The notes under the pieces: generated by a model | Database searches by the model: none | The model's input: only the letters and a program-made list of their open reading frames with translations | What the model was told of the DNA's origin: nothing | DNA from: Rhodospirillales bacterium | Lineage (GTDB): Bacteria; Pseudomonadota; Alphaproteobacteria; Rhodospirillales; Shumkoniaceae | NCBI GenBank assembly: GCA_028281785.1 | Contig: JANQJG010000036.1 | Location: forward strand, 1-64,000 | Length of the DNA stretch: 64,000 nt | Reading direction: 5' to 3' | Part shown: piece by piece, positions 10,876-21,992 of the stretch | How the letters are laid out: each line of letters opens with the position of its first letter | Numbering within the stretch: the first letter of the stretch is position 1 | Translations under genes and position numbers: made by a program

Positions 10876-12498
10876 ATGGCACCGGCTCCCTCAGGCCTGA
10901 AAAAAAGGCGGCACGTCTCTCCTATTCTGAGGCGAATTCTTGCCGTCAATCTGCTCGCCCTCGGCATTCTCGTGGCAGGCCTACTCTATCTGGGGGAATA
11001 TCGGCGCAACATGATCTCTGCCGAAATAGGGGCGCTGGCCATGCAGGTGGAGATGTTCGCCGCTGCCCTCGGCGAGAGCGCGGTCACAACCAACGACGGC
11101 GGCCAGGCACACCAGTACCAGGTCATCAACCCCAGCGCCGCGCGCCAGATCGTGCGCCGGCTAGTCGAGCCGACCGGCACGCGGGCCCGTCTTTTCGGGG
11201 CAGATGGCGTGCTGATCGTCGACAGCCGTCTTCTGTTCGGCCCGGGCGGAATCGTGCAGATCGAAACGCTACCGCCACCCGCCGAGCCAGGGGGCGCTCT
11301 TGGCGTGTTGCTGGGCCTCTATGACCGCCTGGCAAGTCTTCTCCCGGGAACGGAGGATCTCCCGAAATATCGCGAAAACCGAGAGCAGCGGGCGGCGGAC
11401 TATGAGGAGGTTGTCGTCGCGCTCTCCGGCGAAACCGGGGAGGCCCTGCGCCGGACCCGAAGCCGTTTGCTGCTGAGCGCGGCCGCGCCCGTCCAACGCT
11501 ATAAGCAGGTCTCCGGCGCCTTGATGTTGTCGAAGGATTCGCGGGATATCGACGCGGCGCTCCTCGATGTGCGGGTCGATATCCTGAAAGTGTTTGGCGT
11601 GGCCCTCGGCATCACGATTCTGCTTTCCATCTATCTCGCCGGAACCATCGCCCGCCCCCTTCGCAGACTGGCGGCTTCGGCCCAGTTGGTCCGCCATGGC
11701 CGTAACCGTCAATATGGAATCCCGCGGTTTTCGGGGCGAAACGACGAAATCGGTGATCTTGCCGAATCGCTCAGCGAAATGACCGAAGCGTTGTGGCAAC
11801 GCCTGGACGCCATCGAGGGATTTGCCGCCGACGTCGCCCATGAGATCAAGAACCCGCTGACCAGCCTCCACAGCGCGGTCGAAACCGCGGCCCGTGTCAA
11901 GGACCCCGAGCAGCAACGGAAGCTCATGGGAATCATCAAGGAGGACGTCCTGCGGCTCGACCGTCTGATCAGCGACATCTCGGACGCGTCACGGCTGGAC
12001 GCGGAGCTTTCGCGAGCGGAATCCGGCCCGGTGAATGTCGGCGGAATGCTGGCGACCGTCGCCGACCTGCACCAGCAATCCGGCTCCCCGGACGCGCCCC
12101 ATATCTCCCTAGATATCGCTAATGGACAGGATCTCACCGTGCAGGGCATCGAAGGACGGCTCGTCCAGGTCTTTCGCAACCTGATCACGAACGCCGCGTC
12201 CTTCAGCCCGCCCGGGGGAGAAATCTCAATGCGGGCCCACAGCGAAAACGAGTGGATCGAGGTGGAGATATCGGACCAGGGCCCCGGCATTCCCGAGGGC
12301 AAGGAAGAGGACATCTTCGAGAGATTCTACACCGAGCGTCCGGAGGACGAGGCTTTCGGCACCCACTCCGGATTGGGGCTCAGCATCTCGAAGCAAATCG
12401 TCGAGGCGCATCGCGGGCGGATCACGGCCGCAAACCGAATTGGCGGGGAAGGCCAGGTTCAGGGCGCGAGGTTCGTCGTCCGTCTTCCCCGGAACTAG
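10876..12498 (+). CDS. chvG: sensor histidine kinase, ChvG/BvrS family
   Basis: This 540-residue inner-membrane kinase pairs with ChvI. It has an N-terminal membrane segment (about residues 18-40), a periplasmic sensor region, a second membrane segment (about 235-258), a HAMP linker (TIARPLRRLAASAQLV), a HisKA box with His322 (DVAHEIKNPLTSLHS), and an ATP-binding domain with N box, GPGIP and GLGLSISKQIVE. All catalytic elements are present. It starts 3 bases after the chvI stop with a weak ribosome-binding site, so translation is probably coupled. hprK follows 62 bases downstream on the same strand, consistent with one transcription unit for stress sensing and PTS control. Confidence 0.93.
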   Translation: MAPAPSGLKKRRHVSPILRRILAVNLLALGILVAGLLYLGEYRRNMISAEIGALAMQVEMFAAALGESAVTTNDGGQAHQYQVINPSAARQIVRRLVEPTGTRARLFGADGVLIVDSRLLFGPGGIVQIETLPPPAEPGGALGVLLGLYDRLASLLPGTEDLPKYRENREQRAADYEEVVVALSGETGEALRRTRSRLLLSAAAPVQRYKQVSGALMLSKDSRDIDAALLDVRVDILKVFGVALGITILLSIYLAGTIARPLRRLAASAQLVRHGRNRQYGIPRFSGRNDEIGDLAESLSEMTEALWQRLDAIEGFAADVAHEIKNPLTSLHSAVETAARVKDPEQQRKLMGIIKEDVLRLDRLISDISDASRLDAELSRAESGPVNVGGMLATVADLHQQSGSPDAPHISLDIANGQDLTVQGIEGRLVQVFRNLITNAASFSPPGGEISMRAHSENEWIEVEISDQGPGIPEGKEEDIFERFYTERPEDEAFGTHSGLGLSISKQIVEAHRGRITAANRIGGEGQVQGARFVVRLPRN

Positions 12499-12560
12499 AT
12501 CATGTCACCCCGTTTGACCAGCGGTTGACAGGTCTCGCTGCCGGAACCACTTTGCCCGCG

Positions 12561-12995
12561 ATGTCCCAGGTCCATGCCACTTGTATCGAGGTCGAGGGAA
12601 TCGGTGTATTGCTGCGGGGCCCATCGGGTTGCGGCAAGTCTGATTTGGCTCTTCGATTGATCGAGCGCGGAGCGCAGCTTGTGGCCGATGATCGCGTCGA
12701 CCTGACCCGCGAGGACGGCTTGGTGGTGGCCTCGCCACCAGAGGAAATCGCCGGCCTGCTTGAGGTTCGCGGGCTCGGAGTGGTAAGCGTCGGCTGTATT
12801 CCGCGAACCATTCTGGGCCTCGTTCTGGATTTGGTGCCGGCTACGGAAACGGAACGTATTCCCGAATTCGGTCAGTGGAACTATATGGGAGTGGCGGTGC
12901 CTCAGCTCAGGCTGGCACCGAAAGAAGCGTCGGCCGCCATGAAGGTGTATCTGGCCGTGAACATGGTAATTGGAAAGGTTACAAGCGTCCCATGA
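12561..12995 (+). CDS. hprK: HPr kinase/phosphorylase, short alphaproteobacterial form
   Basis: This 144-residue protein corresponds only to the C-terminal catalytic half of Gram-positive HprK, the usual form in alphaproteobacteria. The P-loop GPSGCGKS spans residues 20-27 and the family signature EVRGLGVVSV follows at about 68-77. It should phosphorylate HPr (encoded downstream) on a regulatory Ser. I chose ATG 12561 (MSQVHATCIEV), since the frame extends far upstream through the chvG 3' end without family similarity. Its TGA overlaps the ATG of rapZ (ATGA), showing translational coupling. Confidence 0.92.
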   Translation: MSQVHATCIEVEGIGVLLRGPSGCGKSDLALRLIERGAQLVADDRVDLTREDGLVVASPPEEIAGLLEVRGLGVVSVGCIPRTILGLVLDLVPATETERIPEFGQWNYMGVAVPQLRLAPKEASAAMKVYLAVNMVIGKVTSVP

Positions 12996-16603: not shown

Positions 16604-17893
16604 ATGTCAGACGATTACAAAGTCGCCGATATCGGCTTGGCCGAGTGGGGCCGCAAGGAAATCGACATCGCCGAGACCGAGATGCCGGGACTTATGGCGT
16701 TGCGCGAGGAGTATGCCGGGCAGAAACCCCTTCGCGGGGCACGCGTCGCCGGCTGCATCCACATGACGATCCAGACCGCCGTTCTGATCGAGACCCTGGT
16801 CGAACTCGGCGCGGAGATCCGCTGGAGCTCCTGCAATATCTTTTCCACCCAGGACCATGCCGCCGCGGCCATCGCAGCCCGGGGCCTGCCGGTTTTCGCC
16901 TGGAAGGGTGAAAGCGAGGAAGAATACTGGTGGTGCGTGGAGCAGACGATCCTGGGCCCCAACGACTGGCGGCCCAACATGCTGCTCGACGACGGGGGCG
17001 ACCTGACCCAGGTGATGCACGAGAAGTATCCGGACCTTTTGGCCGAGGTCCGCGGCCTCTCCGAGGAGACGACCACGGGCGTCCACCGCCTCTACGAAAT
17101 GGAGAAGCAGGGAACCCTGAAGATCCCGGCGATCAACGTCAATGACTCGGTGACCAAATCGAAGTTCGACAACCTGTATGGCTGCCGCGAAAGCCTGGTC
17201 GACGGCATCAAGCGCGGTACTGACGTGATGCTGGCCGGCAAGGTCGCCGTCGTTTGCGGCTATGGCGATGTGGGCAAGGGCTCCGCCGACTCGCTGCGCG
17301 GACAGGGCGCGCGGGTGATGGTCAGTGAGATCGACCCGATCTGCGCCCTTCAGGCGGCCATGGAAGGCTATCAGGTGGTGACCATGGAGGAGGCGGCGCC
17401 CATCGGCGACGTTTTCGTCACAGCCACCGGCAACAAGGATGTGATCACCCTCGATCATATGCGGCAGATGAAGGACCGGGCCATCGTCTGCAATATCGGC
17501 CACTTTGACGCCGAGATTCAGGTGTCCGCGCTGCGCAATTTGAAATGGCACAACGTCAAGCCGCAGGTGGACGAGATCGAGTTCCCCGACGGCAAGCGCC
17601 TGATCCTCCTGGCCGAAGGCCGGCTGGTGAATCTTGGTTGCGCGACGGGCCATCCGAGCTTCGTGATGAGCGCGTCCTTCACCAACCAGGTTCTCGCCCA
17701 GATCGAGCTCTGGACCAACACCGACAAATACGAGAACAAGGTTTACGTCCTGCCCAAGCATCTCGACGAAAGGGTGGCCCGCCTCCACCTCCGGAAGCTG
17801 GGCGCGTCGCTCACCAAGCTCAGCGATGAACAGGCGCAATACATCGGCGTGTCGGTGAACGGCCCGTACAAGCCCGACTACTACCGGTATTGA
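16604..17893 (+). CDS. ahcY: adenosylhomocysteinase
   Basis: This 429-residue cytosolic NAD-dependent enzyme splits S-adenosylhomocysteine into homocysteine and adenosine, relieving product inhibition of methyltransferases. Conserved substrate residues appear in [15 protein letters not shown] and [15 protein letters not shown]. The NAD site is [20 protein letters not shown], and the C-terminus ends with the family's PYKPDYYRY. It lacks the roughly 35-residue insert seen in some bacterial homologues, since it is only 429 residues long. It is preceded by a structured leader and followed by a PAS kinase gene on the same strand. Confidence 0.97.
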
Positions 17894-18042: not shown

Positions 18043-20334
18043 ATGACGTCGCTGGCCGCTTTCCTCCTCGGCATTCTTCTGACCATGGCGGCCCTCGTGC
18101 CGCTTTTTGTTTCGTTCCGACGAAGACTGAAGCAAACGGAAAGGCGCTGGCGGTTCGCCGAGAACGCGGCCGAGGCGGGGCGGGAAATCCTGGCGGCCAC
18201 GCCGGAGGGGATGTTCCTCTGGGACGCCCGCAGCGGCAACACCTGCTGCTCGGCAAGACTGGCCGTTCTTCTCAGCCTGCCCAACGGTATCGAGAGCAGC
18301 TATGCCGATCTTGTCGGGCGCTTCGACGAAGCCAGCGCGGCCCGGCTCGACGACGGTGTCGAGAAGCTGCGGCGCGACGGAACGGGTTTTTCCTTGACGC
18401 TCGATTCGATTGAAAACAACCGCACCGTTCAAGCCGTCGGCACCCGTGCCGAGACCCCCGACGGCAGAGCCCTGGCAGACCTGATCTGGATCCGCGAGCT
18501 GGGCGATGACCAGGACGAGGCGGAGATATCGAGGGCTGACCTGATCGACCGGGCTTGGCGGGAAATCATGGACAGCCTGCCCTTGCCAATCTGGTGTCGG
18601 GACTCCGGTTTTCATCTGACCTTCACCAACCGGGCTGCTGAAAAGCTGAACTTCTCCAGCTCGGCCGCGCTGCTGGCGGAGCGGGCCGCGGCCTATGGGC
18701 GACCGGTGACGGAACGCCGGGGTTGGCTGCGGGGCCGCGCCCAGCGACTTGTCGAGATCACGGAAACGCCGCTCGACGGCGGCGGCACCGTCGGTTGCGC
18801 GCGCGAGATCCCTGGCCGACCGGCCATGGCTTCCCGAGACACCGGACGAGAGGAGTTGGCGCGGATTCTCGAAGCCGCGCCGCTTGCGATTTCCGCGTTC
18901 GACGCGGAAGCACGGCTTCGATTTCACAACTCCGCCTATGCCGAGCTGTGGCACCTCGATCCGGAATGGCTGGCCACGCGCCCCAAGCTCGGAGAGATCC
19001 TAGACCGCCTTCGCGAGCTTAGGCGTCTCCCCGAGGTCGCCGACTATCGTGCCTTCAGGGATGAACAGCTGGCCCAGATCGAGTCCCTTCCGGCCCCCGA
19101 CCGGACCCTGCTTCACCTTCCCGACGGCACCAGCCTGGATTCGGTCGTCAGCCCCCATCCGGAGGGCGGTCTGATCCTGGTCCAGGAGGATGTCACCGCG
19201 CGTCTGAGCCTGGAACGATCGGTCAACGAATTGAGCGCCGTGCAGCGGGAGACCCTGGACAATCTTCACGAAGGAATCAGCGTTTTCGGGAGTGACGGGC
19301 GACTCAAGCTCGGCAATCCGGCGTTCCTTCGCCTCTGGAGCTTGGCCCCGGAGGATGTCTCCGACGGCATTCACGTCACCGACTTCCTGGAGCGGGTTCA
19401 GCCCCTGCTGGCCGAGATTCAGGATTGGCCAGCCTACAAGGAACGCATTGTTTCGTCCCTGATGGCGAGACGCTTCCGACACGGGCGGCTGGCAAGGTCG
19501 GACGGGAGCGTTCTGGACTATGCGCAGGTTCCGCTTCCCGATGGCGGCACCTTGATCAGCTATCTGGACGTCAGCGACAGCGCCCGGGTGGAGGAGGCTC
19601 TGCGCCTTCGCGCCGAGGCGCTGGATGAGGCAAACCGGCTGAAATCCCGTTTCATCGCCAACGTCTCGCAAGAGGTGCGCAACCCCGTTACCAGCCTGAC
19701 CGGCTTCGCCGAGACCCTGAGCGCCGAATCTTTCGGAACGCTGAACGCCCGCCAGAAGGATTGCGTGAAAGGCATTCTGGAAACCTCCCGACACCTGACG
19801 ACGATCGTCGACGGCATCCTCGATCTGACCAGCATCGAAGCCGGCATGATGACGTTGCAGTTGGACAGCGTGGACCTTTATGACCTTCTCCTCGGTCAGA
19901 CGGGGCTGATCCGCGAACGGGCCCGCCGCAAAGGGCTGCAGGTGGATTTCGATTGCTCCTCCGACATCGGCTGGATCGTGGCCGATGAAAAGAGACTCAA
20001 GCAGATCCTTTTCAATCTTCTCAGCAACGCCTTGCGGTTCACCCCCCGGGGCGGCCGAATCCGCCTTGACGCCAAGCGGCAGGACGGTGAAGCGATCATT
20101 CGCGTCATCGATACCGGCGTCGGTGTCGCCCCCTCGGACCTCGAAACCACGACGAGCCGAGCCGCAACCGATTCGTCGACCGGGGTCGATCTGGAGTGGG
20201 CGGGTCTGGGTCTCGGCCTGGTGTCGAGGTTCGTCGAACTTCATGGCGGCCGGCTGGAGGTCGCGTCGACGCCGGGTCAGGGAACCACGGTCACCTGCTA
20301 TCTGCCGACCGGCGACGTTCCCGCGGCCGTCTGA
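18043..20334 (+). CDS. PAS sensor kinase with Gln in place of the catalytic His (DivL-like)
   Basis: This 763-residue protein has one N-terminal membrane segment (residues 1-24), several PAS-like segments (about 35-510), a HisKA-like dimerisation helix and an HATPase domain. In the helix, the position normally held by the phosphorylated His is Gln543 (NVSQEVRNP; codon CAA at 19669-19671). The ATPase keeps its N box (KQILFNLLSNALRF), the DTGVGV motif and GLGLGLVSRFVELHGG. Architecture and length resemble Caulobacter DivL (769 residues, Tyr at that site), a cell-cycle regulator. Function as a signalling scaffold or pseudokinase is inferred. It is followed by the minus-strand ferredoxin reductase gene, so it is the last gene of its direction here. 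Confidence 0.85.
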   Translation: MTSLAAFLLGILLTMAALVPLFVSFRRRLKQTERRWRFAENAAEAGREILAATPEGMFLWDARSGNTCCSARLAVLLSLPNGIESSYADLVGRFDEASAARLDDGVEKLRRDGTGFSLTLDSIENNRTVQAVGTRAETPDGRALADLIWIRELGDDQDEAEISRADLIDRAWREIMDSLPLPIWCRDSGFHLTFTNRAAEKLNFSSSAALLAERAAAYGRPVTERRGWLRGRAQRLVEITETPLDGGGTVGCAREIPGRPAMASRDTGREELARILEAAPLAISAFDAEARLRFHNSAYAELWHLDPEWLATRPKLGEILDRLRELRRLPEVADYRAFRDEQLAQIESLPAPDRTLLHLPDGTSLDSVVSPHPEGGLILVQEDVTARLSLERSVNELSAVQRETLDNLHEGISVFGSDGRLKLGNPAFLRLWSLAPEDVSDGIHVTDFLERVQPLLAEIQDWPAYKERIVSSLMARRFRHGRLARSDGSVLDYAQVPLPDGGTLISYLDVSDSARVEEALRLRAEALDEANRLKSRFIANVSQEVRNPVTSLTGFAETLSAESFGTLNARQKDCVKGILETSRHLTTIVDGILDLTSIEAGMMTLQLDSVDLYDLLLGQTGLIRERARRKGLQVDFDCSSDIGWIVADEKRLKQILFNLLSNALRFTPRGGRIRLDAKRQDGEAIIRVIDTGVGVAPSDLETTTSRAATDSSTGVDLEWAGLGLGLVSRFVELHGGRLEVASTPGQGTTVTCYLPTGDVPAAV

Positions 20335-21364: not shown

Positions 21365-21503
21365 GGAATCTCCGGAATCAAACGGCTAAAACAGCCGCGT
21401 CGTCTTGAGACCGCCCCTAACATGGCCGCCGGCTTTTCTCCGATCAAGCCCGGCGGACACAAACGGTCCCAGGCGCGACGTCGAGACGAAACGGCCGGTA
21501 GAA

Positions 21504-21992
21504 ATGCCCGAGGTCGATCTCGCGACAACCCACGTTTCGGTGGAACTGCGCAACGAGTCCGCCACCGCCGCGCTTGCTGCCCGCCTTGCCCGGGTGGCCC
21601 GCCCCGGAGATGTCCTGGCGTTGTTCGGCGATCTCGGCACGGGCAAAACCGTTTTCGCCCGCGCCTTCATCCGCGCCCGCGGCGACAGGACCGACGAGGT
21701 CCCTAGCCCCACCTTCACCCTTGTCCAGGCCTACGAGCTGAAAGAAGGAACGGTCTACCATTTCGACCTCTACCGCCTCTCGGCCTCGGAGGAAGCGTTG
21801 GAACTCGATATCGAAGACGCGTTCGCGGAGGGGATCAGCCTGATCGAATGGCCGGAGCGGCTGGGCAGGCTGCTACCGCGTCGGCGCCTCGACCTGCACT
21901 TGGCCCATGGCGACGATCCCGACCTCCGGCTTGCGACGCTGTCTGGGACGGGAGATTGGCCGTCTCGGCTGGAGGAGGCCGGCCTTGCCTGA
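21504..21992 (+). CDS. tsaE: tRNA threonylcarbamoyladenosine biosynthesis ATPase TsaE
   Basis: This 162-residue P-loop protein works with TsaB and TsaD to make t6A37 in ANN-decoding tRNAs. The P-loop is GDLGTGKTVFAR, followed by SPTFTLVQAY and YHFDLYRL, all family signatures. The start is ATG 21504 (MPEVDLATTHV); earlier in-frame starts lie in the divergent promoter region. Its TGA overlaps the TTG start of amgK, so they are coupled. Confidence 0.95.
   Translation: MPEVDLATTHVSVELRNESATAALAARLARVARPGDVLALFGDLGTGKTVFARAFIRARGDRTDEVPSPTFTLVQAYELKEGTVYHFDLYRLSASEEALELDIEDAFAEGISLIEWPERLGRLLPRRRLDLHLAHGDDPDLRLATLSGTGDWPSRLEEAGLA

Follow-up and report, generated by a model that had tools for sequence, protein, structure and literature searches.

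DivL is a textbook bacterial pseudokinase. The Caulobacter crescentus protein has no kinase activity and senses phosphorylated DivK (DivK~P) through its DHp-CA module; residue H579 is a docking residue for DivK~P, and the substitution A601L disrupts DivK~P binding allosterically (PMC4211667). Exchange of the tyrosine at the phosphosite for histidine (Y550H) keeps binding and disturbs growth (PMC4211667). This tyrosine has been called conserved throughout alphaproteobacterial DivL, with one exception (PMC4211667). In Brucella, divL is found in the order ptsM-ptsO-ahcY-X-divL-tsaE (PMC9491525), and short DivL has been described as always accompanying the loss of DivK (PMC2877005).

The uninterrupted open reading frame at positions 18043..20334 (+ strand, ATG start, 763 aa) of the window, i.e., the 64,000-nucleotide stretch analysed here, is a divL orthologue encoding a PAS-DHp-CA pseudo-histidine kinase, as evidenced by PDB match, fold, neighbourhood, and phylogeny. 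In the PDB, its product matches C. crescentus DivL (4q20) best, at 152 bits as compared to 106 for the chain ranked second. The same structure is the top-ranked stand-alone DHp-CA structure in Foldseek (rank 17, TMt 0.75), with the ranks above it occupied by long multidomain chains that align over the full length of the model. Its sequence identity (36-38%) is also the highest in the Foldseek list. DivL sequences form one clade apart from 42 paralogous kinases (SH-aLRT 99) in a tree from which five distant kinases of the window's own genome, which had fallen outside the split in a first tree, were omitted. The first-pass annotation placed the gene beside ahcY, which lies directly upstream (16604..17893, +). 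It is a conserved neighbour, located upstream and on the same strand in 98/98 orthologue loci where ahcY was found. The conserved downstream neighbour tsaE (ORF 21405..21992, +; true start probably downstream of 21405) was near divL in 51 of the 188 fetched loci, whose flanks are short. The gene order of the window reads HprK-RapZ-PTS IIA-HPr-EI-ahcY-divL-(reductase, opposite strand)-tsaE, in which all names except ahcY, tsaE, and divL were assigned by sequence reading, and thus contains the ahcY-divL-(FNR)-tsaE order expected of DivL loci. Before the PTS genes, the window also encodes a ChvG/BvrS-type kinase with a normal histidine and an HPr-kinase-like ORF (10876-12995). This layout of ChvG/BvrS kinase, HPr-kinase-like ORF, and PTS genes presumably corresponds to the arrangement of the Brucella bvrRS operon.

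Pfam and the AlphaFold2 model agree on the layout expected of DivL: a hydrophobic helix at the N-terminus, several PAS domains, and the DHp and CA domains. The hydrophobic helix (residues ~2-30; 18046..18132, +; MTSLAAFLLGILLTMAALVPLFVSF) is the start of a longer model helix (2-52) and probably inserts as a membrane anchor. It is followed by the PAS region (residues 45-518; 18175..19596, +), which matches Pfam PAS_7, PAS_8, and PAS and contains four PAS-like folds with pLDDT mostly >85. The DHp (HisKA) dimerisation helices (residues ~526-602; 19618..19848, +; Pfam HisKA 534-601, E 9.3e-16) are modelled as H511-560 and H569-599, and the CA (HATPase_c) domain comprises residues ~610-757 (19870..20313, +; Pfam HATPase_c 648-756, E 3.8e-24). 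Mean pLDDT of the model is 86, while its domain placement is unreliable because pTM is low (0.40). The first-pass annotation was right that glutamine occupies the site of the catalytic histidine: codon CAA at 19669..19671 (+) encodes Gln543 (context FIANVSQEVRNPVTSL) in an open frame whose HisKA and HATPase_c domains both match Pfam, and phmmer aligns this residue with Tyr550 of the crystallised C. crescentus DivL (4q20). The protein has the DivL hallmark of no phosphorylatable histidine and departs from a frequently cited one, tyrosine at the phosphosite. As DivL is a known pseudokinase, loss of the histidine is the rule of the family. The annotation's further statement that all ATP-binding motifs remain proved incorrect. 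The N box NLLSNA (658-663; 20014..20031, +), the G1 box DTGVG (690-694; 20110..20124, +), and the G2 box GLGLGL (721-726; 20203..20220, +) are present, but the F box is absent. The F box/ATP lid region (697-719; 20131..20199, +) reads ETTTSRAATDSSTGVDLEWAG where the nearest relatives have RVFETFERG...GAG; ETTTSRAATDSSTGVDLEW replaces the F box and ATP lid, including the F..FERG-type motif that most close relatives carry, and the model is disordered exactly at the lost lid (pLDDT <50 at 705-719). The protein therefore has neither the phosphoacceptor histidine nor the F box of catalytic HisKA kinases, yet ATP might still be bound because the N, G1, and G2 boxes persist.

The same genome encodes the pathway in which DivL acts in C. 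crescentus. CtrA is present with 68% identity, on which its identification rests. ChpT (PF10090 above cut-off) lies ~1.2 kb away in the same neighbourhood, and CckA is represented by the single AHDFNNLL match in the genome, with 5idj and CckA 5idm as best PDB matches. A DivK-like receiver has 49% identity to Caulobacter DivK; the match was checked against the PDB, where DivK came first with PleD close behind. The candidate retains the receiver core. The source is an uncultured alphaproteobacterium near Rhodospirillales. It is highly probable that the gene encodes a kinase-dead, membrane-anchored DivL that regulates CckA by protein binding, with an input from DivK that has probably been weakened or re-tuned; we infer the loss of kinase activity, the control of CckA, and the altered DivK binding. 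Briefly, this DivL would be unable to autophosphorylate at the normal site and would work via protein binding. Its PAS/DHp-CA module would set the kinase/phosphatase balance of CckA and thereby act on CtrA, with the DHp face as the putative docking site for DivK~P, and Gln543 may be one of many residues tolerated where the catalytic job is gone. The DHp-CA module is best seen as a binding scaffold, and in the window's lineage its DivK input may have been weakened or re-tuned.

Changes on the DHp face are consistent with such an altered input. In the same motif as Gln543, Asn547 (19681..19683, +) replaces the threonine of the family (C. crescentus Thr554). Cys574 (19762..19764, +) replaces a family tyrosine and corresponds to C. 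crescentus His579, the tested DivK~P docking residue, and Thr596 (19828..19830, +) stands in place of the family alanine, equivalent to C. crescentus Ala601. Among 30 conserved DHp positions, the window deviates at three (L549V, Y574C, A596T) and three sisters at none. DivK itself is divergent in the window's clade, with 49-56% identity to Caulobacter DivK versus 65-77% in most of the order. The window has the lowest value of its clade (49%, E 1.9e-28; sister genomes 52-56%). The sister DivLs have kept tyrosine and the docking consensus although their DivK is divergent, which speaks against a tight link between the two. Comparison of the divK loci L257-L261 (from G000, G001, G002, G004, and G003) showed a ctpA-type protease gene and no pleD near the divergent divK of the window's clade, whereas G003 retains the usual divK-pleD pair. 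Docking drift (Y543Q, T547N, Y574C, A596T) together with DivK divergence is no more than suggestive of a weakened or re-tuned DivK input, and we regard this as probable because Y543Q accompanies DivK-linked changes, a lost F box, and a divergent DivK.

An alternative hypothesis, possible but in our judgement unlikely, takes this further and proposes that DivK sensing is wholly lost and that CckA is controlled solely via PAS, as with the short DivL of Rhodobacterales. It would account for the alteration of both docking positions 574 and 596 in the genome with the weakest DivK of its clade, below the range of most of the order, and Hyphomonas offers a precedent in that its DivL is essential and its DivK dispensable (PMC7200025). 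A separate glutamine-bearing DivL (L115, family f21) derives from a genome without a clear DivK (G081, best E 4e-22); the f21 relatives of L115 have DivK with ~74% identity. However, the window protein has kept the DHp-CA module with R546, T550, and F555 conserved in DHp, and its DivK candidate, with a receiver core and DivK as first PDB match, argues against complete loss. A relation between DivK strength and HK-module decay was not upheld: raw medians differed (128 with weak and 239 with strong DivK), but the Spearman coefficient was 0.08 and the test on independent pairs came out empty. The correlation of DivK divergence with DivL change was not significant after phylogenetic correction, which left only 7 usable independent pairs. 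A weakened or re-tuned input remains our preferred reading.

The phosphosite was surveyed in 188 DivL orthologues from the order and the class, partly from MAGs, of which 185 have the HK module and three do not. Site residues in the 185 were Y 91, H 30, A 21, F 14, R 6, N 4, E 4, Q 3, M 3, V 2, and G 2, with C, S, T, K, and L once each. In the sequences that have degenerated furthest, such as L143, L152-L155, L191, and L197, assignment of the site residue is uncertain. A strict-motif subset (n=161) gave Y 89, H 28, F 13, A 13, N 4, M 3, E 3, Q 2, and R 2, plus V, C, S, and T. Position 543 has an entropy of 2.5 bits with 16 residues, as compared to 0.1-1.1 bits at its neighbours F537, S542, E544, R546, and P548, and the same column is histidine in 47/47 paralogous kinases, including seven encoded in the same genome as the window. 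Tyrosine does not define DivL, as 94/185 orthologues at the same locus type lack it, and DivL function seems not to need it, because in the strict subset only 31/95 sequences inside the window's order have tyrosine (58/65 elsewhere in the class). This free change of the DivL phosphosite across one alphaproteobacterial order contradicts the published statement of a conserved tyrosine. A search of the literature available to us found neither a glutamine DivL nor a survey of the DivL phosphosite. The first-pass suggestion of a cell-cycle pseudokinase stands insofar as the protein is a kinase-dead DivL-type homologue, in fact a DivL orthologue. The accompanying idea of glutamine as a third natural solution does not hold, given 16 residues at the site and alanine already published for Magnetospirillum magneticum DivL (PMC4211667). 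Neither is glutamine unique, as it occurs at the aligned site of two further genes, L115 and L197. The main surprise is how freely the site changes; the glutamine is real but not singular. With Q, M, A, R, N, F, and H forms at hand in nature, the role of the residue in the sensing of DivK~P and the control of CckA can be tested.

A scan of 386 genomes of the class for glutamine-type H-boxes returned a recurrent TTCATGGCTCATATTGGCCAGGAA type, which was rejected as antisense to an ordinary kinase H-box (one checked), and a sole other look-alike, in G484, which is not a kinase. The complement of ordinary H-box DNA encodes this recurrent HIGQEFR-like peptide (L264 and similar; one locus checked), a trap for DNA-pattern searches for glutamine kinases.

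Unit-cost parsimony required 44-45 changes on the trees, at least 44 of them since a tyrosine ancestor. A tyrosine root for DivL costs 44 steps and any other state at least 46, despite a histidine outgroup; tyrosine is thus the parsimonious ancestral state at the site, by a small margin of two steps and with weak deep branches. The window gene falls in a clade (support 99/98) with L019, L037, and L109 of the same family, all with tyrosine (codons TAT, TAC, and TAC), while a fourth same-family genome, G003, has histidine and is placed elsewhere in the tree. The refutation proposed earlier, in which histidine in homologues of the same genus was to remove the claim, would therefore misfire: one same-family genome has histidine and three have tyrosine, and a non-histidine residue is the norm of the family. 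L115 (CAG) sits inside a His/Asn clade, and the alignment of L197 (CAA) is less certain. One parsimony reconstruction includes ~12 returns from tyrosine to histidine. It is tempting, although rather doubtful as a whole, to propose a free phosphosite at which tyrosine replaced an ancestral histidine and was then swapped many times, with some histidine forms possibly DivK-responsive kinases again and the window's lineage re-tuning or losing its DivK input. Candidates for such kinases are those histidine forms in which all CA boxes are intact, among them L014, L018, L049, and L029. The site is not functionless everywhere, because Y550H causes defects in Caulobacter. The expectation that histidine forms are more kinase-like was rejected: median scores against a canonical HK profile were 226 for histidine and 252 for tyrosine forms (paralogues 367, window 241), and independent pairs were not significant. 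In family f21, DivL (L030, L033, L092, L100, L106, L107, L119) has histidine at the site and the entire ATP lid deleted (e.g., DGGTGLKENEVPPGLALI), so that these forms are probably unable to bind ATP normally. Histidine at the DivL site consequently does not imply a kinase, and since all DivL forms fit the HK profile much less well than the paralogues, tyrosine or histidine at this position is uninformative on catalysis.

Could Gln543 be a sequencing or assembly artefact of a real histidine (CAC) or tyrosine codon? The organism is represented here by a single assembly, one base suffices for a CAC-to-CAA error, and when 317 genomes from the order were scanned with a strict DNA pattern for glutamine, no second example emerged. 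A one-base error is nevertheless not the simplest account, because the tyrosine codons of the nearest relatives (TAT/TAC) are two substitutions away from CAA. The open frame, the further lineage-specific changes in the same DHp, and the glutamines of L115 and, with less secure alignment, L197 also speak against an artefact, which we consider very unlikely; a route from tyrosine via histidine (CAC) to glutamine is plausible. Similarly unlikely is a decaying pseudogene, derived from an ordinary sensor kinase by recent loss of the histidine. Such decay would fit the lost F box and the four DHp departures, but the 763-aa frame is open, PAS, DHp, and CA conservation is kept with an HK-profile score near that of the tyrosine forms, and by parsimony the family lost its histidine long ago. 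An active kinase that uses the glutamine, a neighbouring residue, or another substrate can practically be dismissed despite the retained N, G1, and G2 boxes, as the F box is missing, all DivL forms are off the canonical profile, and Caulobacter DivL is inactive. No histidine kinase is known to phosphorylate glutamine.

Three ahcY-adjacent DivL proteins of family f27 (L157, L158, and L159, from G093, G117, and G101) have 554-577 aa and end after the PAS region, with DHp-CA absent within the fetched flank. Their genomes keep a DivK with ~70% identity, which runs against the published rule that couples short DivL to DivK loss (PMC2877005).

Compared with described systems, DivL itself is known and its glutamine residue is previously undescribed. 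The window protein resembles C. crescentus DivL (CC3484; 4q20) in its PAS/DHp/CA layout, in lacking a phosphosite histidine, and in the CckA-ChpT-CtrA set of its genome. It differs by glutamine in place of Tyr550, the loss of the F box, changed equivalents of H579 and A601, and a partner DivK only 49% identical to that of Caulobacter. The ahcY-divL-tsaE order is common to the window and the Brucella operon (PMC9491525). M. magneticum DivL is likewise neither a tyrosine nor a histidine form, but has alanine where the window has glutamine (PMC4211667); alanine forms in our survey were mostly from other families (f22, f4, f18). The short DivL/DvlL of Rhodobacterales and Anaplasmataceae also acts without a catalytic domain (PMC9430884, PMC4426382), yet lacks the DHp-CA module that the window protein retains as a whole. 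With the DivJ/PleC kinases, finally, the window protein has in common the DHp-CA fold and the response-regulator partner family, whereas those kinases have histidine and a canonical CA domain and the window protein groups with DivL.
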